Assembly (NCBI GenBank): GCA_963281255.1
Contig: OY725491.1
Coordinates: forward strand, 5,010,857-5,074,856
DNA length: 64,000 nucleotides
Direction: 5' to 3'
From: Aphrocallistes beatrix
Taxonomy: Eukaryota > Porifera > Hexactinellida > Sceptrulophora > Aphrocallistidae
The position numbers and the translations under genes were made by a program. Below the pieces are notes generated by a model. That model was not told where the DNA came from and made no database searches. It was given only the letters and a program-made list of their open reading frames with translations. Positions 24,143 through 60,600 of this stretch are shown here, in pieces. Position 1 is the stretch's first letter, and the number at the start of each line of letters is the position of its first letter.

Positions 24143-24219
24143 CCAGGCGACCGAAAGGAGCCTCTGGCGGACACAAAGTGTCCGCCAGCCGCGCAGCGCA
24201 AGCAAGCGAAGCGCGCTTG
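24143..24219 (+). repeat. Three-hairpin GC-rich tail, copy 1
   Basis: Consecutive stems: AGGC..CC/GG..GCCT; GGCGGACAC/GTGTCCGCC with AAA loop; then GCGCAGCGC..GCGAAGCGCGC. Ends CTTG|T. Confidence 0.85.
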
Positions 24220-25300
24220 TTATGTACAAATTGCGAGACCAATGATGCATGAACTGTTCCGGATATAACCTGTCTGTCTATGGAACTGTTAAGCCAGTAT
24301 TAATTACCTTGGGAAGACTGCTTCTTAAAACAAGACATAAATTTTAAGTTTCTTCTCAATTTTCCTCCAGAACTCTTTGATAATGGCGACGTTACATTTT
24401 GATAGCACAATGTACGTACATTGCTTAAGAAACAACCACAATAATATCATTAGTTGCCATATTATTGTGGATAAAACAATTCCTTGGTAAATAGTATAAA
24501 ATAAATCAAAGTTTAAATTTAAACCTATAATTGTTATAAATAATTGTGTATTTTAAAAGAAACATAGTCAGATATGAATACTGAACTAAAGAAACATTTA
24601 AAGTGAAATCGATAAGAATTTGTGAAATTCATACAATTGTTGTTAATTACCTTGCTAGTGAATTCAGGTCCTTGATCATGTTAGGTTACTTTGGAAACAC
24701 CGAATGTTAAGTATTTAAATATCCTGCAATCTTTTCAAAACCTGTTGAGTTGTGCTACTATTATTCTCATTAGCATTGAGTATTAAACAAAAGCAATCAT
24801 AAATTGATTTCACCTGAAATCAGCTCAAAAGCGAAATGAACTGTTCACTGGGACTTGGCATCTTCAGCTCAGGACCAAATTTTATGGATAAATTGGTCCT
24901 CGTGGTCCAAAATTCCATGAAAAAGCACACAAAAATTTAGCAACTACTAATTACTCAAAACAACACTTATATAAACGAAAATATTTGAAGTCTGTAGTTC
25001 TCATCTATCGACACAATAACAAATTATCAACCTGAAGTCAGATATAATCCACGCGGTTTATTTAACATTCCAAATAACAGTCCTTGTTACTCTAACGCTT
25101 CGAGGAGGGCTCCCTTATTCGAAGATATTTTGATATTGCTTTTAGCTGCATCGCGAATGATTAAACTCATACTAAAGCTGAGACAAAATAACGATGGACA
25201 ATGTAGCTGTATTCCTTGGTCACGTGTAATCATAGAGCGTATCTTGTATCTGGTGAAATTGAATACATACACACAAGTAAAACCTTCTAAACTAAGTACA

Positions 25301-25482
25301 GTCAGGATCGCTTATTGTGAACCACCTGGGGACCAAAAATCTGTTCATAATAGAGATACTTTATATTAAGCGAACTTGATCCAATACAAATCCTATCTAG
25401 AAAATTAAATTGGGACCAGGAGGTTAGTTCATAATAAACGAATGTTCATATTAAGCGGGTTCATAATAAGCGAACCTGACTG
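25301..25482. mobile_element. CAGT MITE with GCTTATTGTGAACC ends
   Basis: Left end CAGTCAGGATCGCTTATTG, right end (minus strand) CAGTCAGGTTCGCTTATTAT, both bordered by TA. Non-coding and pogo/Tigger-like by its termini. Confidence 0.7.
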
Positions 25483-25710
25483 TATGTACATTTTTTCAGT
25501 CGGTAATTTTACGTCACAAAGGTCTGTGTTAGGATGGATGTGCTAGCTTTCTAACAGGGTTTAATTCGCTATCTAGTATTTAATTTCTGTTGTTTTCACA
25601 ATCAACTATGTCAGATCTCCGTTACGTTGCTAGAGATGGAGATATTGCGGGTACATTAAATAACTACAGTATATAAGTATAATACAGATAAAGAGCTTGT
25701 AAATATGTAC

Positions 25711-25866
25711 AGTGGAATTCGTTAATTAGCAACTCTAGTTTTGCCCAAAAATAGTTGCTAATACGCGAAGTTGCTAATAAGGGAACAGAATTGACACAAA
25801 ATCTTCACTTATGACCTGAAGATCGGTTGCTAATAGAGCAATATTGCTAATAAGCAAATTCTACTG
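25711..25866. mobile_element. CAGT MITE with TTGCTTATTAGCAA ends
   Basis: Left end CAGTGGAATTCGTTAATTAG, right end (minus strand) CAGTAGAATTTGCTTATTAG, flanked by TA. A copy at the equivalent position before the third fucosyltransferase (45538-45688) shows that it predates that duplication. Confidence 0.75.
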
Positions 25867-26180
25867 TATATCCATATATAGAAGAATGGCTAAGCTAAAC
25901 CCAATAACTACTGTAAAATTGCATACTATGTTTATTCATGATTGATTTAATCATATATGTATAATGCAGATGAAGAGTAACCATATATGTATAATGCAGA
26001 TAAAGAGTAAGCAAATATGCATTGATTGAATTCTCAACTAGCTTAAATACTGAATAACCAATCTACTTTATACAATTGCAATTACACTGACCATTTTTCG
26101 AATCATTATTACACTAACAATAGCAACAACTCGTTAATTGTTCAATTAATCGTGATAACTCATCCAACTTAAAGTGCTCA

Positions 26181-27296
26181 ATGGTGTCATCTACAATATT
26201 AGTGATCATCCTTCTCATCTGTTTAATAAGCCTTCATGATGCAATTCGTGTTAAGATAATACCCGAGTTTGTTTGGCAGGGCCATCATGCTAGAGTGCTA
26301 GAATGTGATATACCTTGTGAGTTTTCGGAAGAACCAGAAAATCCTGATGCCGAATTATACGTAGCGATCAATAATGAAGATGTCAAAAAATTCGTGGACA
26401 GTAAATCAGAACATCCACTAAAAATCATAGCTTCGGAGGAAGGCGAACATTACTATCATTTACTCAAACTCGAATATTTAAAACAACATTTTCAGGCTAC
26501 ATCTCTGATAAACAGACACTCAGACATTCCTTTGGTGTTGATGCCAGATATGGATATCGTCAAAGCCATGAAAGTATCCAAACGTGCCCAACCAAAGGCC
26601 AGTTTTGTGGCTGTTAATTGCGACCCAAAAAATAATCGCAACGACTATGTAAAGGCGATCGCTGAAGTAATAGGAGTGGATGCGCCTAGCAATTGTTTCA
26701 ACAATATGAAATGGCCTTTTTGTGAAGGAAGACCTTGCACTAAAGTAGAAATACTCCGCAACTATAAATTTAACCTCGCTTTTGAGAACGGTGATAGTCC
26801 TGGGTATGTAACAGAAAAAATCTACGACGCTTTCGAGGCTGGGGTTCTACCAGTTTACATGGGAACACGTGACGTAGCAGAAGCGGTACCTAAAGGCTCT
26901 TACATATATGTGTCAGATTTTAAGACACCCCAGGATGTAGCAAATTATTTGAAAAAGGTCATTCGGAATGAGACTTTGTACAGAAGCTATTTTAAGTGGA
27001 AATATAAGCATGATATTCTATTTGAAATGAGAAATCGGGCACTGTGGGAAGATGACAATTTTTGTCGCGTGTGTTATTATGTAGATGCAATGAAGCGAGG
27101 ATTTGGTTGGGACCGTATCTACCAAAAGGCTGTGGCTAGGATTCTACCATCCGAAGCATCTAATGAAAAATCTGACCATCCCGACAATGTTCCTTGTGAT
27201 TGCATACTGAACTATTCATCTTATTCCTTCTTTTTGCTTCTAATAGTGATAGTAGCCTTATTTTTCAAGAAGCTCTTTAGGAAGAGAATATGGTAA
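26181..27296 (+). CDS. GT10 fucosyltransferase-like enzyme, copy 1
   Basis: 371 residues in one exon. Residues 1-22 are a hydrophobic signal or anchor (MVSSTILVIILLICLISLHD). The catalytic domain carries the GT10 donor-site signature YKFNLAFENGDSPGYVTEK (about residues 195-213), then AGVLPVYMG and, near 295-300, the FCRVC cysteine pair typical of alpha-1,3-fucosyltransferases. These enzymes move fucose from GDP-fucose to glycan GlcNAc in the Golgi. Unusually, the C-terminus ends in a second hydrophobic segment (SYSFFLLLIVIVALFF) followed by the basic tail KKLFRKRIW, so the protein may be anchored at both ends. All family landmarks and the frame are intact. The ATG follows about 250 bp of upstream sequence conserved with the other two copies. 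Confidence 0.9.
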   Translation: MVSSTILVIILLICLISLHDAIRVKIIPEFVWQGHHARVLECDIPCEFSEEPENPDAELYVAINNEDVKKFVDSKSEHPLKIIASEEGEHYYHLLKLEYLKQHFQATSLINRHSDIPLVLMPDMDIVKAMKVSKRAQPKASFVAVNCDPKNNRNDYVKAIAEVIGVDAPSNCFNNMKWPFCEGRPCTKVEILRNYKFNLAFENGDSPGYVTEKIYDAFEAGVLPVYMGTRDVAEAVPKGSYIYVSDFKTPQDVANYLKKVIRNETLYRSYFKWKYKHDILFEMRNRALWEDDNFCRVCYYVDAMKRGFGWDRIYQKAVARILPSEASNEKSDHPDNVPCDCILNYSSYSFFLLLIVIVALFFKKLFRKRIW

Positions 27297-27914
27297 TCTT
27301 ACAGAAAATTTTGCTATTTGTGTGAATGTTTGTTCATTCCAGTAGTTTCAGTATAACATATCTCGAGTCAAAAGTTCTTCAATTCATTTGATTTATATGT
27401 TTAGTATCCGATTATTGAAATAAAGACATCCTTACATAAAAGAAATCACCTATAAATTTATACTTAGCATATCATACTTGTATCTTATTTTGCTAATTCA
27501 TATCCATTATTAAATACATCATTTGCAGTCTTGATTCATTACCATTTATTGGGGGCGGTTCCCGGGCGATGATATGTCCGAACGACAAAGTGTCCGGGAC
27601 AAATGTCCCGCGAGGAAGATGTCGCTATTCGATCCCGATGTATTAAAACCTTGGGTTTACCTTCTAAACTCAAGACGCTAACAATTTTGGCTGATTTTAA
27701 AATTGGAAAGCTCAAAAAAAGCAAATTATTATAACTCACATAGGGATCTCAAAATATGGCAAAGTAAAACGGAAAATAAAATCACGCAGACAAAACTAGT
27801 TCAGTAAAGCTAGGCAGCTAAAAGCCTACTACAAGTAATATACAAAAGCAATCAAATAAATGTTAACACAAATTTACAAGATGAGACTTTCCAATGAAAA
27901 TTCTATTCAAGTTT

Positions 27915-28121
27915 CAGCCAGTCACCATTTCCAGTTTAGATAGGTTAGAGTAGACTGGAGGGTTTTCTAGCGTATCATTAGTATAGACAGGGTTATCATA
28001 TCCTGTCATTTTTTCATCGGCTATCCCAGGTGTTGCAGCTTCAAAATCCTTTTTCTCTCCTGAGATAGCATTCTGATTATCCACGGTATTACAAGGAGAT
28101 GTCTATATATCTCAGATGGTT
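27915..28121 (-). pseudogene. Tyrosine-rich receptor-tail exon, copy 1
   Basis: After a TATTTAG acceptor the exon starts EPSEIY, then a small insertion shifts the frame. The rest reads VDNQNAISGEKKDFEAATPG, MTGYDNPVYTNDTLENPPVY and SNLSKLEMVTG before a TGA. Tyrosines in DNPVY (an NPxY endocytosis or PTB-binding motif) and PPVYSNL look like a signalling-receptor cytoplasmic tail. The exon lies tail-to-tail with the fucosyltransferase. Its upstream exons were not found, so it may be a detached gene end. Confidence 0.6.
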
Positions 28122-28225
28122 CTAAATAGAGAATATTTTATTCAAATATGTAGAGATGGGGATCGAGTTAAGTTGGTTACCAGAGGTGCATCTAGCCACC
28201 CCCTCAGGGGGTCAGCCCCTCTGAA

Positions 28226-28919
28226 AATATTTTGGACTTCCATTATCCCCCTCTGAGATTCGGAAGTCAATCACGCTCCGCAGTAGCTATCCCTCAAGGG
28301 GGGCTAGTATCCCCCTGTAATATATATCTTCTTAGTCCTCCTCTGAGTTTCAGGGCAGGCCCAACTCTTTGGTTTCATTTCGGAATCTTGACTACCTGAG
28401 CAATATCTTCGTTGAATTTGCATTCTTTCCAACATTTTGCTTACAAAACACTCTTCCATGAATCTACTTATTCTTATTTATTAGCAACGGTTAAATTAAT
28501 TTTATAATCATACCTGGATAAGCGGAACTATCACTTATCATTTTAATTTGCTTTTGCACTCAACCGTTTCCATCTATCAGTTGAGATATAGTTCGTTCAA
28601 TCTATGGTCAAAATTAAGAAATCACAATGTTCCCGATATCGAGGATGTCTTCCAGCCGTTTTCTATGGCACTGAAGCCATATAAATGCTGAGCATTCTAC
28701 AGTTAAATGCAATCAATACTTCTTACTAATTGGGGGTGCTCCACTTTGACCAAGTTTAGGCCTGTTTCAAAGGATTTTGACCACCTACGGATTCTGCCCA
28801 CCTATCAGCTAAACTGTGCTTGTACAGTCTGAAAATGACAATTAGACTATTTTAAACTTGGGTGTATATGGTTACATAGAGAAGAGTACAATTTCTAACT
28901 AACAATTTTACATTTCTAG
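28226..28919. other. Repeat-derived intergenic DNA
   Basis: 28226-28340 has GC-rich CCCCCTCTGAG/GGGGGCTAG inverted units, probably a MITE. About 28600-28740 copies the repeat at 22517-22660 and 30640-30770 (GAGCATTCTACAGT). No gene seen. Confidence 0.45.
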
Positions 28920-29089
28920 ATTTACATTTTGGAAGCGATTGAATATGATCAGATCAAGAATTTTCTTATGACCAACACCATTCCTTCGGGGTTCAAGAAG
29001 TATAAACGGAAGAATGTTATTCGTAAGTGCAGTGTGTATGGACTAGGAGAGAAAAATAACCTTTTCAAGGTGAGATACAATATAATTTA

Positions 29090-29511
29090 TGAGTGTTAAG
29101 TTAGCAGCGAATTTAGCAGCGAAAATGAGCAAGACATAGATGGTTATACTTCTGCTACCAGCCACTAGATCGAATGTCATTTGGTATATATCAATACTAA
29201 CCTAGGAGGTTTATGCCATTTCGATGGAGTTTGAATTTCATCCTGATCGACCCATCTGTAGCTGAGTTATAATGTGTTATAATAAATCGTACTAGATTTC
29301 AAACCTACATAAATATAGTGAAAAATGGTCATTTTTGCTAAGTCACTAGAAGCCTTACAGGGGTTATATTGGGATATCATTGAAATGACAGTAACTTCCT
29401 AGGCTATTATTAATATATACCAAATGACATCTCGATCGAGTGACTGGTTGAAGAAGTATAGCTTGTTATGTCGTGCTCGATTTTCGCTGCTAAATTCGCT
29501 GCTAGCACTCA
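29090..29511. mobile_element. MITE with roughly 100-bp inverted ends inside the integrase intron
   Basis: Left TGAGTGTTAAGTTAGCAGCG and right (minus strand) TGAGTGCTAGCAGCGAATTT lead into matching arms ending near ATGTCATTTGGTATATAT. TA-like flanks. A single arm of a related element occurs near 63475. Confidence 0.75.
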
Positions 29512-30123
29512 TATACTTGTATAATTTGCAATTTTGATTCTAATTTCTACTGTTCGGCCAATACCTTAACTTGTCGTAAACAAATATAAGTCACAATTTA
29601 TAAGACTGAATTTGAAAATTAATGAGAAATAATCTACTTGGGGATGACTTCATGCTAACCATGTTAGAGCGATCACATTGAAATTCAAAACCTGTTTTTG
29701 TGATCGGAATGGGAATGAAGCATTCCTCCAAGTTCCTCTCCGTTCCGAAGTTTTGGGTATAATTCAGCACCACCAGGATTAGACTCATACCGGAGCGACT
29801 ACTGAAGCCATTCATAAGAAATATACTTGACTTGGATTATACAAAGATGTTGATGACTATGCAAGAATTTTAAGGTAAAATATTATATATACACATTCAA
29901 CTTTTTATATTTCCGTGCTGAATTTTATTGTTGAGTGAAAACAGTGAAAACATGTCATCAGTGCCAATTGAACGCTCTACGAGAACTGCAACCAATCCCA
30001 CCACCTGAAGAACCTTGGGCCCATTGCGGGATTGATCTTGTGTGTGAGTTGCTGTCAAACTCTTTTGGATTTCATAACATACTTGCTGTTGTTGCTCGTG
30101 CCAAGAAAACTAACGCCTGACCA

Positions 30124-30199
30124 CAGGCGCCCAAAGGGCGCCTCCGGCGGACACAAAGTGTCTGCCAGCCACGCAGCGCAAGCAAGCGAAGCGCGCTTG
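30124..30199 (+). repeat. Three-hairpin GC-rich tail, copy 2
   Basis: First stem is a perfect GGCGCCC/GGGCGCC with AAA loop. The second carries GTGTCTGCC opposite GGCGGACAC, a G-T-tolerated change. The third is as in the other copies. It truncates the integrase exon to its left. Confidence 0.85.
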
Positions 30200-31069
30200 T
30201 ACACAATAATATGACAGCTAATGATATTATTGTGGTTGTTTCTTAGGCAATGTAAGTACATTATGCTATCAAAAATGTAACGTCGCCGTTTATTAAAGAG
30301 TTTTACTTAAGTAATGTGTGAAATTGAGAAGAAATTTTGTGCATGACTTAGAAAATTTGTGCTTTGTTATAAGAAGCAAACTAGTCTTCCCAAGGATATT
30401 AATACTGGCTTAACAGTTCCATAGACAGACAGGTTATATCCGGACCAGTTCATGCATCATTGGTCTCGCAATTTGTACAGAATAAATTGGATCTTCTAAT
30501 TGTGAATTTGTACTGATTGAACGAATTTGAACGAGACTTGAAATGTATTCTGATAATTAATTGTGTTCTTCTAACGAGTCGATCATGTATTTATACTGAG
30601 ATCAAATTCCTATAGTAAAGATTCAAGAATACCTAATTGGTTTAATAACTGCTGGTTTTAACTGTAGAATGCTCAGTATTTATATAGCTTCACTTGAATA
30701 GAAAATGACTGGGAGATATCCGGGAGATCGGGGATACTGTGTCCTCTGTGTGCATTCTACCGTTAGGTTTATTTTAGAATTATTTATTGGTTCTAGGATT
30801 TTAATAAACTTTACGAACGATCGAATGTCAAAAATCAAAAGACAACCACTTATCTTGCACAATCTAATGGATTAATGTTGAATCTCACTACAAAATCCTC
30901 AAAACGCAAGTAACTATGAATCATCATTATTGTTATTATGTTATAGATCAATATAATAAATGCTGACTTATTCTAATCAAATTATTTTATTCTTTTTAAT
31001 TATTATTCTAATCAAATTAAGTAAAATCAACAAAATGATGAATGAAAGAGATGCTGAATGGTCGGAACA

Positions 31070-31260
<191 letters not shown>

Positions 31261-31635
31261 CTGCCATGAGCAATATAAGAAAGAAGAAAACATGCGATCG
31301 CAAAGTAATACGTAATTGGTTAGTTTCTCATCAATGATCTTCTCATGATACAAATGGAACTAATATTTCCTAGACTGATTTTTCGATTAGTTTTACCATT
31401 CTTCTGACATGACGCAATCTACTTGGTATGGATTTTGGCTAATCTTAGTTTTCATGATGCGTCACTGCTTTGATCAAATGACTTGGTACCGTCACATGAT
31501 ATACCACACATATTGATTGCGAATATTTATGTTTGGCTAGATCCGAATTCGAAGTGATTGATTTAATCTTAGCACAGAATATCAAAAAGCGAAGAAGTTA
31601 GCAGGTTTCGAAAAGGAGGGAAAAGCTTTGGTGCA

Positions 31636-32110: not shown

Positions 32111-32136
32111 CGCGCCTAACCCCAAAAATCATACGC

Positions 32137-33225
32137 CTAATTATGATCCATAAGATCAAATACGAGCAAAAAGAAGGAATAAGATGAATAGTTCAGTATG
32201 CAATCACAAGGAACATTGTCGGGATGATCAGATTTTTCATTAGATGCTTCGGATGGTAGAATCCTATCCACAGCCCTCTGGTAGATACGGTCCCAACCAA
32301 CTCCTCGCTTTATTGCATCTACATAATAACACACGCGGCAAAAATAGTCATCTTCCCACAGTGCCCTGTTCCTTTTTTCGAACTCAGTATCATCATGCTT
32401 ATATTTCCACTGAAAATAACTTCTGTACAAAGTCTCATTCCGAATGACCTTTTTCAAATAATTTGCTACATCCTGGGGTGTCTTAAAATCTGACACATAT
32501 ATGTAAGAGCCTTTAGGTACCGCTTCTGCTACGTCACGTGTTCCCATGTAAACTGGTAGAACCCCAGCCTCGAAAGCGTCGTAGATTTTTTCTGTTACAT
32601 ACCCAGGACTATCACCGTTCTCAAAAGCGAGGTTAAATTTATAGTTGCGGAGTATTTCTACTTTAGTGCAAGGTCTTCCTTCACAAAAAGGCCATTTCAT
32701 ATTGTTGAAACAATTGCTAGGCGCATCTACCCATATTACTTCAGCGATTGCCTTTACATAGTCGTTGCGATTATTTTTTGGGTCGCAATTAACAGCCACA
32801 AAACTGGCCTTTGGTTGTGCACGTTTGGATACTTTCATGGCTTTGACGATATCCATATCTGGCATCAACACCAATGGAATGTCTGAGTGTCTGTTTATCA
32901 GAGATGTAGCCTGAAAATGTTGTTTTAAATATTCGAGTTTGAGTAAATGATAGTAATGTTCGCCTTCCTCCGAAGCTATGATTTTTAGTGGATGTTCTGA
33001 CTTACTGTCCACGAATTTTTTGACATCTTCATTATTGATCGCTGCGTAAAATTCGGCATCAGGATTTTCTGGTTCTTCCGAAAACTCACAAGGTATATCA
33101 CATTCTAGCACTCTAGCATGATGGCCCTGCCAAACAAACTCGGGTATTATCTTAACTTGAATTGCATCATGAAGGCATATAAAACAGATGAGAAGGATGA
33201 TCACTAATATTGTAGATGACACCAT
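32137..33225 (-). CDS. GT10 fucosyltransferase-like enzyme, copy 2, altered C-terminus
   Basis: 362 residues, near-identical to copies 1 and 3 through the N-terminal anchor, the complete YKFNLAFENGDSPGYVTEK donor signature and the FCRVC pair. Differences include one extra residue near position 285 (KHDDTEFEKRN versus KHDILFEMRN). The match breaks inside the last hydrophobic segment: SYSFFLL is followed by VFDLMDHN and a stop, so the distal membrane segment and basic tail are lost. If the C-terminal segment anchors the protein, this copy should be held only by its N-terminus or be secreted. It is inverted relative to the other two, and about 200 bp of its 5' flank match theirs. Confidence 0.88.
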   Translation of the reverse strand: MVSSTILVIILLICFICLHDAIQVKIIPEFVWQGHHARVLECDIPCEFSEEPENPDAEFYAAINNEDVKKFVDSKSEHPLKIIASEEGEHYYHLLKLEYLKQHFQATSLINRHSDIPLVLMPDMDIVKAMKVSKRAQPKASFVAVNCDPKNNRNDYVKAIAEVIWVDAPSNCFNNMKWPFCEGRPCTKVEILRNYKFNLAFENGDSPGYVTEKIYDAFEAGVLPVYMGTRDVAEAVPKGSYIYVSDFKTPQDVANYLKKVIRNETLYRSYFQWKYKHDDTEFEKRNRALWEDDYFCRVCYYVDAIKRGVGWDRIYQRAVDRILPSEASNEKSDHPDNVPCDCILNYSSYSFFLLVFDLMDHN

Positions 33226-33566
33226 TAATCACTTTAAGTTGGATGAGTTATCACGATTAATTGAACAATTAACGAGTTGTTGCTATTGTTAGTGTAATAA
33301 TGATTCGAAAAATGGTCAGTGTAATTGCAATTGTATAAAGTAGATTGGTTATTCAGTATTTAAGCTAGTTGAGAATTCAATCAATGCATATTTGCACTCT
33401 TCCTCTGTTTTGTGCTATAATTAAACCAATCATGAATAAATCTCTTTAGAATATCTAATGCAATTTTACAGTTTACATATATTGGATTTCATCATAGCCT
33501 ACTCTATTCGTAGAATTATAATTGAACATGCATTTTTGCAAGCTCTTTATCTGCATTATACATATA

Positions 33567-35199: not shown

Positions 35200-35960
35200 A
35201 GATATTAAATATATATATATATATATCTTATATATTAAAACTCTAGGATTTTTTTTTGTTTGTTTGTCCGAATTGATTGAAGAATTGGCAAGTCGTAGAG
35301 ATACGAAAATTGGCATGTAGGTGTTAAATGATGAATCTAGGATTAAGTTTGAAGATCTAAGCGAATGTTCACACCTCGCCGAGATAAGTGACAAAATGTG
35401 CTGACCAATCAAATTCGACTATTTTATAATGCAAATACATTAGAATAAAATAGTAGTAACTTATGCATACAATCAAAAGAACTATTTGTGATTGAAATTC
35501 ATTGGTTTATGTGAGAACCAATCAATTATCAGCCTTTTATAATGCCATTCATACGATTCTATCTCATATAAATGATTGAATACTGCTATTTTGAGTCTAT
35601 AATTTGATTGTTAACAACAATTAAAGTGTGTTATATGCTACGATCAATCAATTCGATCATAAAATAACTTTTAACGACATGGACTGGAATTGATTATTCA
35701 AGTAAAATAATCTTTAGCAATGTGAACTTTGTGTAGTCAAATAGCGCGTACATTCAGGATTAGTTGACTTAATACGAAGTAAATTATATTTAGCTCGAAA
35801 CAAAATTTCTGCTATAGTTCTGATTTTATTAATGTAACAGTAGACAAATGACAATCCAGCGGACTTAGTATAAAACAAGAAAGCGACGTATTGATTCTCT
35901 AATATCCCCAAGCGCCCACTGGGTAAATCTGCAGACACGCAGTGTCTGCAAGCCGCGCAG
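35200..35960 (+). mobile_element. Helitron-like family A element, 3' end truncated
   Basis: Begins TCTTATATATTAAAACTCTA, continues with GTCCGAATTGATTGAAGAAT, and ends within the hairpin tail: stem GCCC/GGG, then GCAGACAC/GTGTCTGC, then CCGCGCAG, where a family B fragment starts. No coding capacity. Confidence 0.7.
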
Positions 35961-36146
35961 AAAGCTGATTTTAGACATGTGGGAGTTTTTTGGCTATGGC
36001 TCCAGTAAATTCTGAGCTCAGACGAAAATGTCGACTCATCATGGAATTATGACGTTATTGTCACATTTTTGAAAGTTTAGCAATACAGTTATTCGAGCAT
36101 AACTCAGCCATTATAGGAGATAAAAAGCTGAAAATTTAATAGATCA
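35961..36146 (+). repeat. Family B fragment forming the loop of a giant palindrome
   Basis: AAAGCTGATTTTAGACATG through TAATAGATC matches the family B interior. It is bracketed by oppositely oriented family A copies. Confidence 0.7.
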
Positions 36147-36904
36147 CAAGCGCGCTTCGCTTGCTTGCGCTGCGCGGCTTGCAGACACTGTGTGTCTGCA
36201 GATTTACCCAGCGGGCACTTGGAGATATTAGAGAAATAATAAGTCACTTTCTTGTTTTATACTAAGTACGCTGGATTGTCATTTGTCTACGGTTACATTT
36301 ATGAAATCAGAACTGTACCAGAAATTTTGTTTCGTGATAAATATAATTTACTTCGTATTAAGTCAACTAATCCTGAATGTAAGTTCAATTTGAATACAAA
36401 AAGTTCACATTGCTAAAGATTATTATACTTGAATAATCAATTCCAGTCCATGTCGTTAAAAGTTATTTTATGATCGAATTGATTGATCGTAGCATATAAC
36501 ACACTTTAATTGTTGTTAACAATCAAATTATAGACTCAAAATAGCAGTGTTCAATCATTTATATGAAATAGAATCGTGTGAATGGCATTATAAAAGGCTG
36601 ATAATTGATTGGTTCTCACATAAACCAATGAATTTCAATCACAAATAGTTCTTTTGATTGTATGCATAAGTCACTACTATTTTATTCCAATGTATTTGCA
36701 TTATAAAATAGTCGAATTTGATTGGTCAGCACATTTTGTCACCTATCTCGGCGAGGTGTGAACATTTCGCTTAGATCTTCGAACTTAATCCTAGATTCAT
36801 CATTTGACACCTACATGCCAATTTTCGTATTTCTACGACTTGCCAATTCTTCAATCAATTCGGACAAACAAACAAACAAACAAACAAAAATCCTGTGTTT
36901 TAAT
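36147..36904 (-). mobile_element. Helitron-like family A element, complete tail
   Basis: Minus-strand start TATATTAAAACACAGGATTT (near 36904), end at the three-hairpin tail (36228-36147) and CTTG|T. Pairs along about 740 bp with the copy at 35220-35960. Confidence 0.75.
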
Positions 36905-36907
36905 ATA

Positions 36908-37454
36908 CAAGCGCGCTTCGCGCTTGCTTGCGCTGCGCGGCTGGCGGACATTTTGTGTCCGCCGGAGGCTCCCTTCGGTCGCCTGGAGTCACATTGGTTA
37001 ATTATAAGGGAGATAACATCTCTAAATATGTCTTTCCTACTGTGCTAATCGATATCACTCGAAAAATCACCAAATTTGTGAATTTAAAAATTTTTGATGC
37101 GTAATGATGACGTCATAACAAAGTGATGAGTCATCATTTTTTGGTAATAGTTGCATCATATGTGAGGTATGTTAGTACACAGATTCTATTAAAATTTCAG
37201 CCTTCTATCTCCTATAATGGCTGAGTTATGCCCGAATAACTGTGTTGCTTAACTTTTAAAAATGTGACAATGACGTCATAATTCCATGATGAGTCGACAT
37301 TTTGCTCTGAACTCAGAACTTACTGGAGCCATAGCCAAAAGACTCCCACATGCCAAAAATCAGCTTTCTGAGCCAGGCAGTTTCTTCAATCAATTCGTTA
37401 CAGAGATATATATATATATACACAAATAACAATCGAGTTTTAATAGTAAGGATA
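36908..37454 (-). mobile_element. Helitron-like family B element, both ends present
   Basis: Minus-strand start TCCTTACTATTAAAACTCG, microsatellite, TGTAACGAATTGATTGAAG, body, hairpin tail (36984-36908), CTTG|T. Its tail abuts the start of the next family A element. The body holds two TGACGTCA sites and one TGAGTCA site. Confidence 0.78.
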
Positions 37455-37707
37455 AGATGTATATTAATATATCTCACATATGGCACAACTATCATCAAAA
37501 AATGATGACTCATCACTCTGTTATGACGTAATCATTACGCATCAAAAATTGACAATTTTGGTGATTTTTCGTGCGATATCGATTGTAACAGGAGGACAAA
37601 TGTATTTAGAAATGTCATCTCCCATATAATTAATCAATGGTGACCACAGGCGCCCAAAGGGCGCCTCCGGCGGACACTTTGTGGCCGCCAGCCGCGAAGC
37701 GCGCTTG
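37455..37707 (+). mobile_element. Family B element, 3' half with hairpin tail
   Basis: Head-to-head with the previous copy. Ends in a perfect GGCGCCC/GGGCGCC stem, a GGCGGACAC/GTGGCCGCC stem with one mismatch, and a shortened third hairpin, then CTTG|T. Confidence 0.75.
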
Positions 37708-38246: not shown

Positions 38247-38808
38247 TCTGGGCGCTTATTTATTTCGTGCACCCTTTTGATCCGGCGCTTATTTTTTTCA
38301 TTCGCTATTTATAATTACAAGCGCACTTCGCGCTTGCTTGCGCTGCGCGGCTGGCGGACACTTTATGTCCGCCGGAGGCTCCCTTCGGTCGCCTGGTGTC
38401 ACATTGGTTAATTATAAGGGAGATAACATCTCTAAATATGTCTGTCCTACTGTGCTAATCGATATCACTCGAAAAATCACCAAATTTGTGAATTTAAAAA
38501 TTTTTGATGCGTAATGATGACGTCATAACAAAGTGATGAGTCATCATTTTTTGATGATAGTTGCATCATATGTGAGACATGTTAGTATACAGATTCTATT
38601 AAAATTTCAGCCTTCTATCTCCTATAATGGCTGAGTTATGCCCGAATAACTGTGTTGCTTAACTTTCAAAAATGTGACAATGACGTCATAATTCCATGAT
38701 GAGTCGACATTTTGCTCTGAACTCAGAACTTACTGGAGCCATAGCCAAAAGACTCTCACATACCAAAAATCAGCTTTCTATGACCGGCAGTTTCTTCAAT
38801 CAATTCGT

Positions 38809-38812
<4 letters not shown>

Positions 38813-38871
<59 letters not shown>
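38813..38871. repeat. (TA)n microsatellite
   Basis: Almost 60 bp of TA, the usual 5' subterminal microsatellite of family B, lengthened at the nested insertion junction. Confidence 0.9.
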
Positions 38872-38872: not shown

Positions 38873-38874
<2 letters not shown>

Positions 38875-39640
38875 AGCGCGCTTCGCTTGCTTGCGCTGCG
38901 CGGCTTGCAGACACTGCGTGTCTGCAGATTTACCCAGTGGGCGCTTGGGGATATTAGAGAAACAATACGTCGCTTTCTTGTTTTGTACTAAGTACGCTGG
39001 ATTGTCATTTGTCTACGGTTACATTAATGAAATCAGAACTGTAGCAGAAATTTTGTTTCGTGATAAATAGAATTTACTTCGTATTTAGTCAACTAATCCT
39101 GAATGTAAGCTCAATTTGAATACACAAAGTTCACATTGCTAAAGATTATTATACTTAAATAATCAATTCCAGTCCATGTCGTTAAAAGTTATTTTATTAT
39201 CGAATTGATTGATCGTAGCATATAACACACTTTAATTGTTGTTAACAATCAAATTATAGACTCAAAATAGCAGTATTCAATTATTTATATGTAATAGAAT
39301 CGTGTGAATGGCATTATAAAAGGCTGATAATTGATTGGTTCTCACATAAACCAATGAATTTCAATCACAAATAGTCCTTTTGATTGTATGCATAAGTAAC
39401 TACTATTTTATTCCAATGTATTTGCATTATAAAATAATCGAATTTGATTGGTCAGCACATTTTGTCACCTATCTCGGCGAGGTGTGAATATTTCGCTTAG
39501 ATCTTCGAACTTAATCCTAGATTCATAATTTGACAGATACATGCCAATTTTCGTATCTCTACGACTTGCCAATTCTTCAATCAATTCGGACAAACAAACA
39601 AAAAAAAATCCTAGAGTTTTAATATATAAGATATATATAT
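38873..39640 (-). mobile_element. Helitron-like family A element nested in family B
   Basis: Minus-strand start CTTATATATTAAAACTCTAG, end in the hairpin tail (38948-38873), whose second stem is TGCAGACAC/GTGTCTGCA rather than GGCGGACAC/GTGTCCGCC. Both sides are (TA)n. Confidence 0.78.
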
Positions 39641-40690: not shown

Positions 40691-42189
40691 TATGGATATT
40701 TTGGATTATAATAACATTTTCCAATTCTTAAAGAATGGAATTATTCCCAAAGATTTGGCCTCGAAATCTGCTCGACAGACTTGGAAGACGCGGGCTTCTT
40801 CTTATAATTTGGTGAAGGGGAGAAGTTATTCAAGGTTATCTAAATATTATGTATATCATAGTGTCAATATTTATCAGCTATTTTCTTCCCCTTTAATTCT
40901 TGAATATCTCTATTAGATTCATAAATCAAATGGAAGAAATCGGTTGCTACGTTGTCCAACATCAGACGAGGTGCCGAATATCCTCAAACAGTATCATGAC
41001 CCGGAAGATTGTGGAATTAATGCTACCACCGATATGATCATGAAAGACTACGTGTGGAGAGGAATGCAAAAGGATATTCGCAAATATGTAAGTTCTCACA
41101 ATCTTATATTTTCAAGCACGAATTATATCTACAGTTGATACCGGCATGCCTAATTTCCGGAACGGGACGGGACCGTCCCGGAAAATCTAGATACCTAATT
41201 TCTGGGACGGGACGGCATCCCGTCCCGGAAATTAGGCATCTTAACTCGTCCCGTCCCGGAAATTAGGTACCTTTTCTGTCCCATCCCGGAGATAGGCATC
41301 TTGACTCGTCCCGTCCCGGAAATTAGGTACCTTTTCTGTCCCGTCCCGGAAATTAGGCATACCTAGTTGATACCGGCTATACAAACATCGCTGGGAGTCG
41401 AGAAAATGTTCTTATATCAGTACTGGCTAAGTCGGTATTAATCCTTAATTATGACAGTGCCTGAACTATATTAAACTATTCTATGGTGTATGGAACGTAG
41501 AAACCTGCGTTTTCTTATTTTAAGAAAATCAAATACAATTAAGTCAAAACGTTTTGAACATTGGAGGATGTCTCAAGTAACACTTTTCTCTCTATCAATG
41601 GTCATTTTGTTAAAAAAGTTCTTATAACCAAGTATTTTACTAAAACATATTCTTAATTAATCCGTTTCGTTGGATATGGTTCTTATACCATCGGCGCCGA
41701 ACCCAGGGGGTGGGTGGGCTCGAACATCTCTGGATTCAAAGATGATCCATATACACAAAAAAGAATTATGTCTGAGCCCCCTAAACTCTTCTAAATTGGT
41801 CAATAATTCGCAACTTCGGCACTTTATATCCGGTATTCTTTTAACTGGTATCCACTGTATTATGAATTTATTTGTAGATTAATAGTTGTCACTCCTGTCA
41901 AATGGCTACATCTAATCTACCAAAAATCAAGCTTAAATTGCAACCCATCCCAGCTCCCAGACTCCCTTGGCATCACATAGGGGTAGACCTAGTGACTGAT
42001 CTACCAACTAATTCCCAAGGCTACAAACATATATTAGTTGCTGTTTGTTATTTAAGTAAGTTTGTCGTTGCTCGACCTTTATTTACAAAGACAACACAAT
42101 CAGTAATTGATGTTCTGACTGAGATTTATCTCATTTTTGGTATCCCTGCTGTTATACAGCATGATTAGGGTAGAGAATTCACGAGTAAG
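40691..42189 (+). pseudogene. Integrase/transposase of the Ginger-like element, defective
   Basis: Three exons. 40691-40834 (MDILDYNNIFQFLKNGIIPK). 40917-41087, the zinc-binding region from QYHDPEDCGINATTDMI to QKDIRKY, where the expected second zinc-binding His after CG is Ile. 41878-42189, CHSCQ completing the zinc site, then LQPIPAPRLPWHHIGVDLVT with the first catalytic Asp. Acceptors (TATTAG, TTTGTAG) and donors (GTAAGT, GTGAGT) are good; the join of exons 1 and 2 is uncertain. A TAG follows HD in the second-Asp motif (HD*GREFTSK), and the Glu-bearing exon present in copies I, II and IV is missing. Three lesions make it inactive. Confidence 0.72.
41146..41367. repeat. CCGGGACGGGAC palindromic array
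   Basis: GGCATGCCTAATTTCCGG opens the array. Units face right up to about 41215 and then left (GTCCCGTCCCGGAAATTAGG, four copies), ending GGAAATTAGGCATACC. The whole is a composite inverted repeat inside the integrase intron. Confidence 0.85.
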
Positions 42190-45688: not shown

Positions 45689-45955
45689 TCCATAGATAGA
45701 AGAATGGCTATGCTAAATTCAATAACTACTGTAAAATTGCTCTAAAAATCTTCTAAAGTGATTTATTCATGGCTGCCTAACTATATATGTATAATACAGA
45801 TAAAGAGTTAGAAAATATGCACTAATTGAATTCTCAACCTGCTTAAATACTGAATAACCAATCTACTTTATACAATTGCAAATACACTGACCATTTTACT
45901 CGTTAATTGTTTCTACTCAATTAATCGTGATAACTCATCCAGCTTAAAGTGATTA

Positions 45956-47059
45956 ATGGTGTCATCTACAATATTAGTGCTCATCCTTCTCATCTGTTTA
46001 ATAAGTCTTCATGATGCAATTCAAGTTAAGATAATACCCGAGTTTGTTTGGCAGGGCCATCATGCTAGAGTGCTAGAATGTGATATACCTTGTGAGTTTT
46101 CGGAAGAACCAGAAAATCCTGATGCCGAATTATACGTAGCGATCAATAATGAAGATGTCAAAAAATTCGTGGACAGTAAATCAGAACATCCAATAAAAAT
46201 CATAGCTTCGGAGGAAGGCGAACATTACTATCATTTACTCAAACTCGAATATTTAAAACAACATTTTCAGGCTACATCTCTGATAAACAGACACTCAGAC
46301 ATTCCTTTGGTGTTGATGCCAGATATGGATATCGTCAAAGCCATGAAAGTATCCAAACGTGCACAACCAAAGGCCAGTTTTGTGGCTGTTAATTGCGACC
46401 CAAAAAATAATCGCAACGACTATGTAAAGGCGATCGCTGAAGTAATAGGGGTGGATGCGCCTAGCAATTGTTTCAACAATATGAAATGGCCTTTTTGTGA
46501 AGGAAGACCTTGCACTAAAGTAGAAATACTCCGCAACTATAAATTTAACCTCGCTTTTGAGAACGGTGATAGTCCTGGATATGTAACAGAAAAAATCTAC
46601 GACGCTTTCGAGGCTGGGGTTCTACCAGTTTACATGGGAACACGTGACGTAGCAGAAGCGGTACCTAAAGGCTCTTACATATATGTGTCAGATTTTAAGA
46701 CACCCCAGGATGTAGCAAATTATTTGAAAGAGGTCATTCGGAATGAGACTTTGTACAGAAGTTATTTTCAGTGGAAATATAAGCATGATATTCTATTCGA
46801 AATGAGAAATCGGGCACTGTGGGAAGATGACAATTTTTGTCGCGTGTGTTATTATGTAGATGCAATGAAGCGAGGATTTGATTGGGACCGTATCTACCAG
46901 AAGGCTGTGGATAGGATTCTACCATTCAAGGGATCTAATGAAAAAAATTCAGATTACCCTCGTGATTGCATACTGAACTATTCATCGTATTCCTTCTTTT
47001 TGCTTCTAATGGTGATAGTAACCTTATTTTTCAAGAAGCTCTTTAGGAAGAGAATATAG
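45956..47059 (+). CDS. GT10 fucosyltransferase-like enzyme, copy 3
   Basis: 367 residues, single exon. It shares with copy 1 the N-terminal hydrophobic segment, the intact donor-binding signature YKFNLAFENGDSPGYVTEK, AGVLPVYMG, the FCRVC pair and the C-terminal hydrophobic segment with basic end (SFFLLLMVIVTLFF, KKLFRKRI). It is about four residues shorter because the spacer before the last segment differs (LPFKGSNEKNSDYPRDC versus LPSEASNEKSDHPDNVPCDC). Scattered substitutions elsewhere are conservative. About 240 bp of 5' flank and the 3' flank through the tail-exon copy are conserved with copy 1, so regulation may be shared. Confidence 0.9.
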   Translation: MVSSTILVLILLICLISLHDAIQVKIIPEFVWQGHHARVLECDIPCEFSEEPENPDAELYVAINNEDVKKFVDSKSEHPIKIIASEEGEHYYHLLKLEYLKQHFQATSLINRHSDIPLVLMPDMDIVKAMKVSKRAQPKASFVAVNCDPKNNRNDYVKAIAEVIGVDAPSNCFNNMKWPFCEGRPCTKVEILRNYKFNLAFENGDSPGYVTEKIYDAFEAGVLPVYMGTRDVAEAVPKGSYIYVSDFKTPQDVANYLKEVIRNETLYRSYFQWKYKHDILFEMRNRALWEDDNFCRVCYYVDAMKRGFDWDRIYQKAVDRILPFKGSNEKNSDYPRDCILNYSSYSFFLLLMVIVTLFFKKLFRKRI

Positions 47060-50876: not shown

Positions 50877-50927
50877 TATTATTTTTATAGAATATTCCGT
50901 GGTTAATAAATACACAAGTCCCCATAG

Positions 50928-51036
50928 AGTGCGTAAAAGTCCTATTTGCAATATATTTAGATCATACTAGGAGGATCCGGATTCTCCTCCTAGTAGAACC
51001 TAAATATGTTGCAATAGAAACTTTTCAACGTGATAA
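50928..51036. repeat. Second long hairpin
   Basis: Left arm AAAAGTCCTATTTGCAATAT..TACTAGGAGGAT pairs with ATTCTCCTCCTAGTA..GCAATAGAAACTTTT. Arms are about 45 bp with few mismatches and a very short loop. Confidence 0.85.
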
Positions 51037-54600: not shown

Positions 54601-57600
54601 ATTCAATTTAATATTAATAATGTCAATTGTAATGGGAATGAAAGCAACCTACTTGAATGTGATTTTTCAACGTCGGTCACATATTGCCGCTATTACAATC
54701 ATGTCTACTTAGATTGCAGTTTTGGTAAGTTATTGTATTTATTTTTAGGAAGAATGAGAATCATGTAAAATATTGCACCCAAGATAAATTACAGTAGAAG
54801 TCGCTTAATCGGACTCGGATAATCAGGACAATCTATAGGGAATGACTTTTATGTGCAAAAGTCATCAGATAATCGTGACGTAACTTCGGTTAATCGGGAC
54901 AAAACATGTCATAGTTCATCTATTCATCAAGATTTTTGCCCCAATTAAGCGATAAATATGTTGGTTTTCATCGTATAATCGGGATAAAAGAGCAAATTAT
55001 ACGATTAAAAGTTAATATCCTCGTTTAATCTGGAATGGGATCCGATTAAGCGATTGTAATTTTAAAGTGATTGGTCAATCAGAAAGACAAAATATTCTGC
55101 TAGGGTGGTGCAGTGGTTAGGGCGTTTGAATACCAAGACTTAGGTCACGGGTTCTAACATCTTCACGACTGTTCTGTGATTTATAATACATATTTTTATA
55201 TTTTTAATTTCTAAATCTATATCTGCAGGTTCTACACTTGCTAGCGCTGCACTGATAGCGAACACGATTTGTGTCCCCCTGAGTCACCCTTCAACTTCCC
55301 CTCTCACCAATTTGATAAATTTTAGTATATTAGATTATGAGGATAAGGAAAACTTTTGAGATTTCGAAAATGATCCAAAAAACTTTTAAAAAAGGTATGC
55401 GATTATCCTCGAATATGGTTGCCAGAATTTCTTACGACTAAACCCGGACAAATATATGCTAGTAACAAATTATTAATTCTTACTCTTATCTCAACATTTC
55501 CAGCTGCAAATTAACTATTAAGATATATTTTCAAATCATTTTAATTCAATTGTTATATTTAAGGATGCCACACAGCAGCATCGATATTCATAATAATTTC
55601 CTGGACGAGACAGATAAAATAGCTAATTTCGGTCCCGTTCCGGAAACTGACTATGTGTTGCCTGCTTTTATTTAATCTATTTAATTATCTATAGATCATT
55701 GTCAATCATATCTTTACGATTCTGGAAATTCAGCTCAAGTAGTTCAATATTTCAATGGACAGGATTGGTTCTATATATGCAAAGACAAATTCTCTGAGAA
55801 AAATGCCCATGTCATCTGCTATGAGAATTATGGAACTGAGGCACTTAACTATGCTTATGCTGAAGGCAGAAGTCTTTTATTCGGTTACTCATTCTATCCT
55901 TATCAACTAAAGTGTAAAGGTGATGAAGCTAGTATCTGCAACTGTCCTATTGAGAGACAGACATGTAGTTCTTTTGAAGCAGTGGAAGTATTCTGTAAAA
56001 AGCCAGGTAGACATGATTTGTCAATTTATTTTTGTGTAATCAAGTCTAAAATTTCGCTCGCTTGCTCTTTGCCCTTGTATCAGTATTAGTTTGTCCCTAA
56101 ACTGAGAGATTATTTGTACTTTCTACACTTTTCAAGACATGATAATCTTATAAATGAAAACGCTGAGGTTTTTCTTTGCTCGTTTGTTTAGTTGTTAACC
56201 CGAATTGATTGAAGAATTGGCAAGTCGTAGAGATATGAAAATTGGCATGTGGGTGATAAATGATAAATCTACGATTAAGATCTAAAAAGCGAAATTTTCA
56301 CACTTTTTCTATACAACATGGTATGTATTCTTAGAATTGATCCCAATAAGTGAACTGAGTGCACAATAAACTTATTTTTAACATTAACTCAGTATGGATT
56401 TTTTAAAAATATGTATTCATGCAAATGGGCATGCCTAATTTCCGGGACGGGACCGTCCCCGAAAATCTAGATACCAAATTTCCTCAACGGAATGGATCCC
56501 GTCCCGGAAATTAGGTATCTTAACCCGTCCTGTCTCGGAAATTAGGTATCTAAACTCGTCCCATCCCGGAAATTAAGTACATTTTCTGTCTCGTCCTGGG
56601 GGTTTAACCATCTCGACTCTCCCGTTCCGGAAATTAAGTACCTAGATTTTCCTGGATGGCCCTTTTCCGCCCCGTAAATTGGCATCTTAACCCATCCCGT
56701 CCCGTAATTAGGCATGCCCAGCAAATCTATTTTTACGTACATACACTATCCGGACAAAAGTATTTGCACACTTCATTATCTTACGTGCATTTAATACTAA
56801 ATGGGTCTATTCATGGAGATTAAAACTCCGAAGCGGTAAGTGATAAAACTAATCGGGTTTCAAATTCGAAATCTTCGCATTCGAATTAGTTATTGTAGGA
56901 TATTTCTAATCAATTATTAATGCCCAATGTTTTCAAATTATCAATCACTGCCATCTTGTGCCACATATGTCCCTTTATATCACTATATTGTGATGTACTA
57001 CCTCTTGTGGCACAGGTTGATAATTTTACTCATGGGTTGAGCAATTTATTAGAAATCTTCAACTATTACTAATTCGAATGTGAAGATTTCGAATCTTAAA
57101 TCAGACTCTTAATAGCTCTTAGAGTTTGAATACTTTTCCCTTCATGAAAAGACCCAATTTAGTACTATTTGTATGGGGAATAATATAGTGTACAAATACT
57201 TTTGTCCGATTAGTGTATGTGTATTCTTAATAGATTACTTGATGATTCGTTTAACCAAAAATCCCGAAGAATTTCTTCAAGCTTACATGGATTCTAGATG
57301 GCTATATGTTTGTGTGGTTATTGATGAATACGATACAAAAGAATATATTGATTACATTCAATCTATCTATTCTGAAACGATGGATCTTGCATGTAGAGAA
57401 CTTGGATACAGTAGAGCAAAATCTTTTGAATTGAACTTCAGTTTCAGATCATCCGAATCTGAGTTTTATTTGGTGTTAAGAGAATGCACTCAATATGATA
57501 CTAAAATCTCCAACTGTGTCGATACTGAATGGGGTTATTATCCCTATCATAGCAGGGCATATTGCCAAACTAGGATTTCTCTGAGATGCGAGGGTTAGTT

Positions 57601-60600
57601 AAGTACAATTAATTCTTCAACATTATATATTAGTCAATTATCCAATTAAAATAATGTTACTAATTTCTAGAGAGTTGCAATTCATTTTTGCCTTTCAATA
57701 TAACAACCGACTCATATGAACCCCTACAGATCTACTCAGACAAATCTTGGTTTTACATTTGCTTTGATGGATTCACTGAATACGATGCAGACGTGATTTG
57801 TAGAGAGACAGCATTCTCTAATGCTATATCCTTAGAAGCTCTTTCACTTGATCATTTCTTGCACTTACATTCTATCTCTCCCTACAAGTATAGTTGTACT
57901 GGAAATGAACTATCTATTTGTGCCTGCCCTTCAGAGAGATCTGTTTGTAATTCAAATACTGTTGTAAAGTTATCGTGTGCTATGCCAAGTAAGTTGAAAC
58001 AATTTATAATATGAAATAGTTATATATTATAACCTATACAAAATTTACAATATTGTATATTAATACTTTACTTTGACTTATTCCCCATTCAACCAATACT
58101 TAGTTCGGACACCATTTTTATATAGCTTCTCCACCCAAAATGACTCGGAATAAGTAAGTAAAATCCTTATTAAAGAATAGAGTATATTATTTATGTTCGT
58201 TATTCCCTATGAATTCATTGAAGGGTTAGGAAAATCTATTTTCACATATCTGCGTAAAAATACACAAAAACAGAGCAAAATTTCACACTTTTCCTCTACA
58301 TTATAATGACTTAATTCCCTAAAGAGCAAATCATTGCATGACACACAATAAACTGTGGTTGTCGAAATTTGTTCTAAAGTATATGTATAAGAGCTCGAAG
58401 GGTTGGTCTAGGCTTAAACTAGACAACAGGGTAGGAGTGAAAGGTGGCTTTAGGTCCGATGCTGCTGTAACAAGGAGAGAAACTTTAGGAATACTCAGTA
58501 GCTTGGGGGAATACACAGCTAACCAGCTGCATGTTTTGCGAGCTCCTAACCAGCTTCATGTCTAGAATTTCTTCAAGCTTACATGGATTATCAGTCAATT
58601 AAGATTAACTGTATCCCATACAGTTTTAAAAGTAATCTTCTTCATGAATAGACCTATTTAGTCCCGGAAATTAGGTATCTATATTTTCCTAGGCGGTCCC
58701 ATCACGTCCCGGAAATTAGACATGCCCGGTCTATTCTACTTGGTTAACGATCTTAAGCTGATCGTGTATTAATCCATTCGGTTATTGCTGCATCCTGGGT
58801 TATTTTACTGTGAGGTATTATATTTTGAGTTGGCTATGGATGATTCAATAATTAAGTTCGAATATCTGATTGAAATTTTCACACCTTTTCTATACAATAT
58901 ATGTATATGGCTTCGCTCTCAGAATAGAAATCATTGTACATTGCATTTGTTAAATGCTCTAAGCCACTTAATCGTAAAGATCCAATAGGTAATGTATGGA
59001 TAATATATTTTGTATTAAACAATGCTTTGTATTTAAGGATGACCTTAATTTCTTCGATTGTGGATAGCTAAGAACCGAAAATGAAACGTAAATCTTTTTA
59101 GTCTTATAATAATATATATAATATATATTATATAATTAATTGTGCTCCAATGATTCTGGTATTAAAATTTGAATTTTACTATCAAAGAACAGCGAATATT
59201 TTGAGACACACCTAACACCGATTTGAGGCACACTAATGTGCCGCGGCACACAGGTTGAGAATCACTGGAGTGTACTGTCATTGTTATTACTAATACTTCA
59301 AATAGTCTGGTGGCTTAAGGATCAAATTATTGAAATGTGGATTAAAGCATGAAATTTGGCACACTTAGTATACTTTTGAGCTCTTGAACAACTTTAGGAT
59401 GGGAACTACTCAATATTTTAACTTCCTGGCAAGATGGCGATCGTAAAAGAATTTATGACGTCATCAAAAATTTAAGAATTTTAGACTTTTACAGAGGCAT
59501 GGAAATTGGCACATTCATATTTCCTAGCTGCTTGGACAACTTTATTTAGGATGTAAAACGCGAAATAGTTTCACTTTCCCGGAAATATTGCGGCTCTGGC
59601 AATAATCGTCGGTTTTGCAATTATTAAAAGGATTTCTTTTTGTTTGTTGGTTTGGCCAATGATTGAAGAATTGGCAAGTCGTAGAATACGAAAATTGGCC
59701 AGTAGGTGTCAAATGATGAATCTATGATTAAGTTTGAATATCTAAGCGAAATTTTCACACCTTTTCTATACAATACTATGTAAGGTTTCACTCTCACAAT
59801 GGAAATCATTGTACGACACTATTGTAGGCTGCCATTGTTATTAATAATCAATAACTTATATAGATGTCTCAATTATATTATGGTGTATAGAAATAAAAAA
59901 GGTTATGTGTATATTTTCACACCTTTATATACATATTTTAACACCATTTGACAAATTTTAATGAAACTATGCTAGAGATAGCTTCCAATGGTTGATATGA
60001 GGTTTTTAGGGGTGTAGATTTCGAATAGCTTATCTTCTGATCGATATGATAAGTTAATTGTTCACTTTTGTTTACTATAGATACATAAAGTAAACCAATT
60101 ACAAAAATAGGCTAGAGACTAGTTTCCAACGGTTAACATTGGATTTTCAGGGGTGCAGATCTAGAATATTATATTTTCGGATCTATTTGAGAAATTATTT
60201 TTAACTTTTGTTCACAAAATTTATATAAATTAAACAAATTCGCAAAATAGGCTAGATTGAGTAACTCAATTCGCCCGCAGGGCGACTCTGCGGACACGAA
60301 GTGTCCATAAACCGCGCATCGCAAGCAAGCGAAGCGCGGTTGTTGCATAATAAATTTCCCTGAATATATAGTCAATATACTTGTCAAATTCCTGGAAATT
60401 GAAAGCTGAGCACGTATATATATCAATAAAAAGTTTATTTTAAATATTTAGATAGGATAAATATTTTTTTAAAAACTGCGATTTTTGGCGGAACCGCATA
60501 TTTTCAGAAATTTTTCATGTTTTGCATCCTGAAGTTGTTCAGACAGCTAGATACTATAAATGTGCCAGTTTCTATACCTCTGTGAAAGTCTAAAATGCTA

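Follow-up and report, generated by a model that had tools for sequence, protein, structure and literature searches.

A shared hairpin tail on three Helitron families of the sponge Aphrocallistes beatrix and its decayed copies inside autonomous relatives

Why do repeats that otherwise differ carry the same end? The question is raised by a window of 64,000 nucleotides of the hexactinellid sponge Aphrocallistes beatrix (contig C4, positions 5,010,857 to 5,074,856, in a genome of 100.5 Mb and 28 contigs), in which three families of repeats, A, B and C, share a 3′ tail of about 77 nt. The preferred reading, which is given a probability of about 0.85, is that the three families are non-autonomous Helitrons which two related RepHel lineages (groups I and II) mobilize in trans, that the shared tail is their terminator, and that bypass of this terminator has left fossils behind.

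The shared tail in the window and in the genome

A script search of the window finds eight complete tails (Table 1). The first-pass annotation had counted nine copies of a module of about 76 bp, every one ending in TTG before a T. The ninth, at 35911 on the plus strand, is readable only to ..AAGCCGCGCAG and breaks off within the third hairpin, where it runs into a family B fragment from 35955, so the rule holds for eight of the nine. At this join (35954/35955) the A tail and the B fragment share GCGCAG, which suggests a microhomology-mediated recombination. The arms of the second stem read GGCGGACAC/GTGTCCGCC in family B and TGCAGACAC/GTGTCTGCA in family A, as had been annotated, and TGCGGACAC/GTGTCCGCA in family C.

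Table 1. Features of the window, with positions counted from its first letter.
Feature	Position	Strand	Complete tail	Remarks
Family B element with extra middle sequence	22803-24219	+	24144-24219	5′ TCCTTACTATTAAAACTC, 3′ CGCGCTTG; occupied site AATTTA-element-TTATGT
Hairpin 1 of tail 24143	24145-24163	+		AGGC..GCCT outer stem, tandem G.A step; basis DNA fold
Hairpin 2 of tail 24143	24164-24188	+		CTGGCGGACAC/GTGTCCGCCAG; basis DNA fold
Hairpin 3 of tail 24143	24190-24215	+		followed by terminal CTTG (24216-24219); basis DNA fold
Tail of 5′-truncated family B copy	30124-30199	+	30124-30199	
Family A element	35226-35954	+		intact 5′ end; tail broken in hairpin 3, joined to B fragment 35955-36143
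Family A element	36147-36907	-	from 36147	first 5 bases TCTTA (37457-37453) severed by the B insertion 36908-37452
Family B element, complete, 545 bp	36908-37452	-	from 36908	inserted in a family A copy between TCTTA and TATATTAAAAC
5′-truncated family B copy	37458-37707	+	37646-37707	hairpin 3 shortened
Family B element	38318-38822	-	from 38318	extreme 5′ end lost in an AT microsatellite
Family A element	38873-39631	-	from 38873	carries the group I 5′ end
Old family C element	59616-60342	+	60271-60342	group I-like 5′ region; C-type tail with GTTG in place of CTTG; 5′ limit approximate
Large near-perfect inverted repeats	1-620			213-bp arms 7 bp apart; 110-bp arms 400 bp apart
Mariner-like transposase	3962-5029			DDE_3, Transposase_1
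Reverse transcriptase	8247-10474			looks non-LTR
Second reverse transcriptase match	18674-20019			below Pfam cut-off
Fucosyltransferase-like frames (Glyco_transf_10)	26124-27296, 32137-33228, 45953-47059	+, -, +		three closely similar frames, segmental duplication, one inverted; Pfam match checked for the 26124-27296 frame only
31-bp tandem repeats	41202-41352, 56481-56602			CCCGTCCCGGAAATTAGG..

The pattern of the third hairpin, with up to two mismatches, gives 3,771 forward and 3,878 reverse matches in the genome (7,649 together), such match counts being counts of patterns and not of complete elements. The reversed pattern, used as a control, gives 0 matches on either strand; the repetition of the tail is therefore real and not a product of chance. 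The 30 tail-pattern loci all lie within the first 2.6 Mb of contig C1, and the samples of 82 and 89 copies used below are thus not random draws. Among the 89 copies, a T directly follows the end of the tail in 86, and the terminus is CTTG in 80, the search pattern itself having contained CTTG. An apparent strand bias of the tails on the megabase scale was rejected as an artefact of the listing: locus L033 has an unlisted perfect copy on the minus strand, and a later listing mixes the strands.

Folding of the tail and selection on it

Single-stranded DNA folds were computed for thirteen distinct tails. Three hairpins are predicted for eight of them (z -3.5 to -5.4), comprising all six B-type tails (24143, 38318, 37645 for the tail at 37646-37707, L010, L022 and L076 of autonomous group I) and two C-type tails (60271 and L013). 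In 38318 the third hairpin is paired differently and a small fourth hairpin is added. In the complete A copy at 38873, hairpin 1 is weak (z -2.5); when a shorter piece of this copy is folded, two hairpins result (z -2.0). Other folds are preferred by the A copies 36147 (z -3.6) and L002 (z -2.6) and by the C copies L004 (z -1.9) and L080 (z -0.4). The multi-hairpin CTTG terminus that had been proposed for the whole group is supported for family B, for autonomous group I and for two of the four C tails folded, and not clearly for family A.

Positions 5-6 and 14-15 of hairpin 1 read GA/GA in 32 of 82 copies and GC/GC in 21, the mixtures being limited to 2 GA/GC and 0 GC/GA, with other letters in 27. 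Tandem G.A mismatches are stable in DNA. Judged from these letters, the inner positions of hairpin 1 alternate in concert between tandem G.A mismatches and Watson–Crick pairs. As the A tails have a weak hairpin 1 or fold otherwise, family A has no clean hairpin at the first stem.

For stem 2, the 82 copies were aligned without gaps. Pair 9 is G-C in 62, T-A in 13 and unpaired in 7; in 63 readable rows of a genome-wide listing, the same pair is G-C in 52, T-A in 9 and broken in 2, and its left side is T in 807 of the 3,302 tails that match the stem-2 pattern genome-wide. Pair 6 is Watson–Crick in only 55 of the 82 copies. Among the 3,302 tails it is A-T in 109, A.C in 122 and G.T in 324, which leaves 2,747 with G-C. 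The A-T count is above the roughly 30 that independent arms would give, an excess that ancestry could also produce, and the change from G-C to A-T at this pair amounts to two CpG transitions. The tail of group I itself has C.T at pair 6 in eight of ten loci, T.T in L077 and G-C in L079. A GNA triloop rule for stem 2 was tried and rejected, the loops being AAA in 51, GAA in 12, GCA in 8 and other in 11 of 82 copies.

Covariation was assessed on 53 distinct stem-2 segments against 500 shuffles. Paired cells reach 88.7% against 85.3% in the shuffles, double-changed cells number 13 against 5.5 expected and the covariation score is 0.140 against 0.095; none of the 500 shuffles attains any of these values. 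Relatedness alone can cause the excess in both the double-changed cells and the score. No excess over the shuffles is seen in the two measures that shared ancestry affects least: pairs changed on both sides are 2 of nine against 2.7 expected (458 of 500 shuffles reach this), and further pair types are 8 against 8.7 expected (451 of 500). The stem-2 pairs said to have changed on both strands, at least two, are present, in a number no higher than shuffling gives. This two-pair covariation, the CpG route at pair 6 and the mismatch in group I lead us to rate selection on the fold, proposed in the first-pass annotation, as possible only.

A tail that is kept for its sequence and not for its fold, with all copies descending from one terminator and the stem differences due to drift, has a chance just short of even. 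The near-invariance of hairpin 3 among the aligned tails would be expected under it, as would the frequent lack of Watson–Crick pairing at pair 6, including the C.T of group I, the agreement of the double-changed pairs with the shuffles, and the preference of 4 of the 13 folded tails for other folds, one more having a weak hairpin 1. Harder to accommodate are the exchange of G-C for T-A at pair 9, with only 7 of 82 copies unpaired, the near lack of mixed states in hairpin 1, and the genome-wide predominance of G.T over A.C at pair 6, where both arms have the same mutational context. This last point is left as a hint and not taken as proof of folding, since a few successful source copies could explain it; in the alignment of 82 copies, the remaining G-C pairs of stems 2 and 3 show the two wobble kinds in about equal numbers (29 versus 26).

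It could also be postulated that the tail is an exchangeable terminator cassette with a selected, strand-specific fold, and that successive rounds of bypass and cassette adoption drive the turnover of the autonomous lineages, leaving a series of fossils. The signs of a selected fold would then be the Watson–Crick swap at pair 9, the switch in hairpin 1 and the tolerance of G.T over A.C on the transferred strand. We regard this combination as rather unlikely.

Ends, insertion site and autonomous partners

That families A, B and C are Helitrons with a common terminator can be followed further at their ends. The 5′ ends read TCTTATATATTAAAACTC in family A and TCCTTACTATTAAAACTC in family B, which confirms the shared 5′ end described earlier for these two. 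Among 29 copies with both ends, the preceding base is A in 28, the exception being the G of another tail, and the following base is T in all 29. A 5′ TC is present in 26, the search pattern having contained TC with one substitution allowed. Empty sites were matched for seven of the 29 among the sequences compared (the window and the fetched loci), and duplication or loss is seen in none of the seven. The empty paralogous site of the element at 22803-24219 lies in the window at 30542-30423 on the minus strand (120 bp, ungapped, 96.7%). Uninterrupted homologues of the 36908-37452 site lie in the window at 35211-35283 and 39646-39574 and in L004:756-866, at 79-83% and with gaps away from the junction. 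Five further sites, found with a stricter filter on joined-flank matches, are ungapped across the joined site at 75-97% identity (L006m994, L007p998, L008p1000, L018m240 and L035p995). For the other 22 copies there is no joined-flank match at all, or the matches are self matches, rich in AT or element-containing. Insertion between A and T without target duplication is Helitron insertion; together with autonomous Rep-helicase elements that bear the same ends, it strongly supports the Helitron-like nature first proposed for these repeats.

The 3′ ends are CTTG and depart from the strict Helitron form CTRR. They agree with the wider form CT[A/T]G given in the accessible text of PMC4289320, and as published Helitrons ending in CTTG exist, current usage does not demand the strict form. 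In place of a single hairpin of 16-20 nt about 11 nt before the 3′ end, the folds show as many as three hairpins, and the last of these closes 0-5 nt before the terminus. Different copies also abut head to tail. The junction GCGCTTG followed directly by TC.TTA.TATTAAAACTC has 186 matches genome-wide (95 + 91, up to two mismatches), and its control has 0.

A genome search with the Rep domain PF14214 gives 106 matches, and four of these lie in open frames that are 1,531 to 1,970 aa long. Twenty Rep domains that were compared form two groups, with 62-77% identity between groups, and in both the Rep domain shares one ORF with PIF1 and Pif1_2B helicase domains (Pfam). The HUH motif PHAHILI and a Walker A motif are present in the autonomous protein, and the group II protein matches Helraiser (7lcc) over 1,044 residues (E 9e-210). 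A group I copy on contig C7 begins directly after an A with TCTTATATATTAAAACTC (also given as TCTTATATATTAAAACTCTAGG) and ends about 9.5 kb away with CACTTG, followed by T. The first ~350 bp of group I are 90-96% identical to family A of the window, and a shorter 5′ match (133 bp, 88%) is found with the old family C copy. The first ~500 bp of group II are 88-90% identical to family B, and its 5′ region matches the element at 22803-24219 in 22865-23104 and 24088-24205. The search for an autonomous Rep/helicase element with the same ends, as had been suggested, yields two Helraiser-like lineages, of which group I shares the 5′ end of family A and terminates in this tail. For group II, no tail is found in three collinear loci (L066-L068), which still match at the end of the stretch, 1.5 kb past the query.

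Two side features of the autonomous elements may be recorded. Tandem arrays lie 3′ of the helicase ORF in L059-L062, with units of ~37 bp in group I and 77 bp in group II. Downstream of RepHel in group II (L066:1500-3602), aligned copies contain short exon-like stretches bounded by ..AG and GTAAGT, which may be captured host exons.

An assignment to Helentron/Helitron2-type elements (HINEs), which have asymmetric terminal inverted repeats, a 5′ hairpin and another target preference, is very improbable. Its attraction lies in an OTU-like match at the C-terminus, of 30.7 bits and over the cut-off in group I and of 21.4 bits and under it in group II, the OTU domain being associated with Helentrons in the accessible text of PMC5148889. 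The elements described here have a 5′ TC and insert between A and T, and not at the non-A/T target of Helentron/Helitron2; their best solved relative is Helraiser, a Helitron1; no endonuclease domain is among the Pfam hits to the four protein pieces that were scanned; and neither asymmetric inverted repeats nor a 5′ hairpin are seen at the 5′ end, as judged by eye. Cut-and-paste MITEs, in which the hairpins would be terminal inverted repeats, resemble these repeats in being short and high-copy with GC-rich palindromic ends, and can practically be dismissed, as the empty sites without target duplication contradict cut-and-paste, the 5′ and 3′ ends are dissimilar and an autonomous RepHel with the same ends exists.

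Fossil terminators and comparison with known Helitrons

Decayed tails lie inside both autonomous lineages. The loci concerned are the best 12 of 41 matches to a group I query and the best 10 of 41 to a group II query, both queries having contained the fossil stretch. In the 3′ regions of group I (L070-L079), a dead C-type tail, ..CCGTGCAAAC or a close variant, is present in all ten loci read. It is followed by ~120 bp of a 5′-truncated family B copy, and the tail of this copy forms the present end, with a functional CTTG followed by T in eight of the ten; L072 ends early in hairpin 3, and L077 has A next. The flanking sequence beyond this end differs among the loci. Two non-autonomous relatives were also read: L080 has a working C tail at the position of the dead one of group I, and L081 has the fused layout. 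In the leaders of group II (L082-L091), a B-like stretch with a decayed tail, without CTTG and without GCGCTTGT, is present in all ten loci read. In L086 and L088 other sequence stands in for the portion further 5′, and L088 retains no more than roughly the final 70 bp in front of the tail; L090 shows an internal deletion, and in L087 the letters further 5′ are N. About ten further group II matches start only after the fossil stretch. Rep domains found independently by the PF14214 search lie at matching places: five of the ten group I 3′ regions sit 6.5-7.5 kb downstream of one, and nine of the ten group II leaders sit 0.7-2.5 kb upstream of one.

Both layouts are what bypass of a terminator would leave, the order of events being read from the layout. 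Nested insertion followed by decay would produce the same arrangement without any read-through, provided that the fused unit never moved as one; the fused unit is present at ten places in each group, which argues against nested insertion alone. Under the preferred reading of trans-mobilized families with a common terminator, transposition would proceed by analogy with Helraiser. The transposase would nick between A and TC, the top strand would be unwound 5′ to 3′, the hairpins would stall the helicase, and the enzyme would cut after CTTG and join the strand at another site between A and T. Family A would enter this process with a group I 5′ end and family B with a group II 5′ end, family C resembling group I at both ends. 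All families would use variants of one terminator of about 77 nt, with two or three hairpins and a CTTG end, the use of this tail by group II being putative. Where the terminator has decayed, the complex would read through to the next one. In group I this would have carried it past the dead C-type tail to the 5′-truncated B copy that now supplies the end. In group II, the dead B tail within the 5′ leader suggests that a B element became the front of the lineage. What this genome adds is that both autonomous lineages themselves appear to be products of bypass and of the adoption of neighbouring ends.

To our knowledge, the recognition of the Helitron 3′ end and its failure, which leads to the capture of flanking DNA, are known mainly from one rebuilt bat element. 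Terminators number in the thousands in the present genome, their autonomous partners have long open frames, and both lineages still contain dead terminators, so that the features of the terminator that matter can be asked from sequence. Hairpin number, position and fold are testable in an existing assay. The decayed internal tails would serve as a record of elements overrunning old stop signals and adopting new ones.

CTTG ends, abutting Helitrons and bypass are already published. A three-hairpin, multi-hairpin or covarying Helitron end was not found in the literature searched, which was mostly outside subscription journals and did not include Repbase. As far as the accessible text of PMC5148889 describes them, Helentron/Helitron2 elements and FoHeli resemble the present elements in their terminal hairpins and RepHel, and differ in their asymmetric inverted repeats, in hairpins at both ends in some, and in their target. 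HELPO2 of Pleurotus is likewise a Helitron with a CTTG end, AT insertion specificity and a subterminal palindrome; in the available description of this fungal element there is one hairpin, whereas up to three are found here (PMC4289320). Head-to-tail G/T junctions between different, abutting Helitrons have been published for maize and bats (PMC2267711, PMC5876387), the accessible maize text giving one adjacent case (PMC2267711) against the 186 junction matches in the sponge. The closest parallel is Helraiser/Helibat of Myotis, which shares the RepHel protein, the 5′ TC, insertion between A and T and a hairpin near the 3′ end (PMC4778049, PMC5876387). According to the available parts of the same papers, Helraiser has one 19-bp palindrome 11 nt from CTAG-3′, compared with the up to three hairpins here, the last 0-5 nt from CTTG. 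Bypass and the adoption of neighbouring ends have been shown for Helraiser (PMC4778049), and new 3′ ends through bypass, abutting Helitrons and ends taken from neighbouring 5′-truncated copies are, on the preferred reading, common to the bat and sponge elements (PMC4778049, PMC5876387). In the bats, as reported in the accessible text, new ends occur in 39 of 395 non-autonomous copies (PMC4778049), whereas in Aphrocallistes beatrix the decayed terminators lie inside both autonomous lineages.
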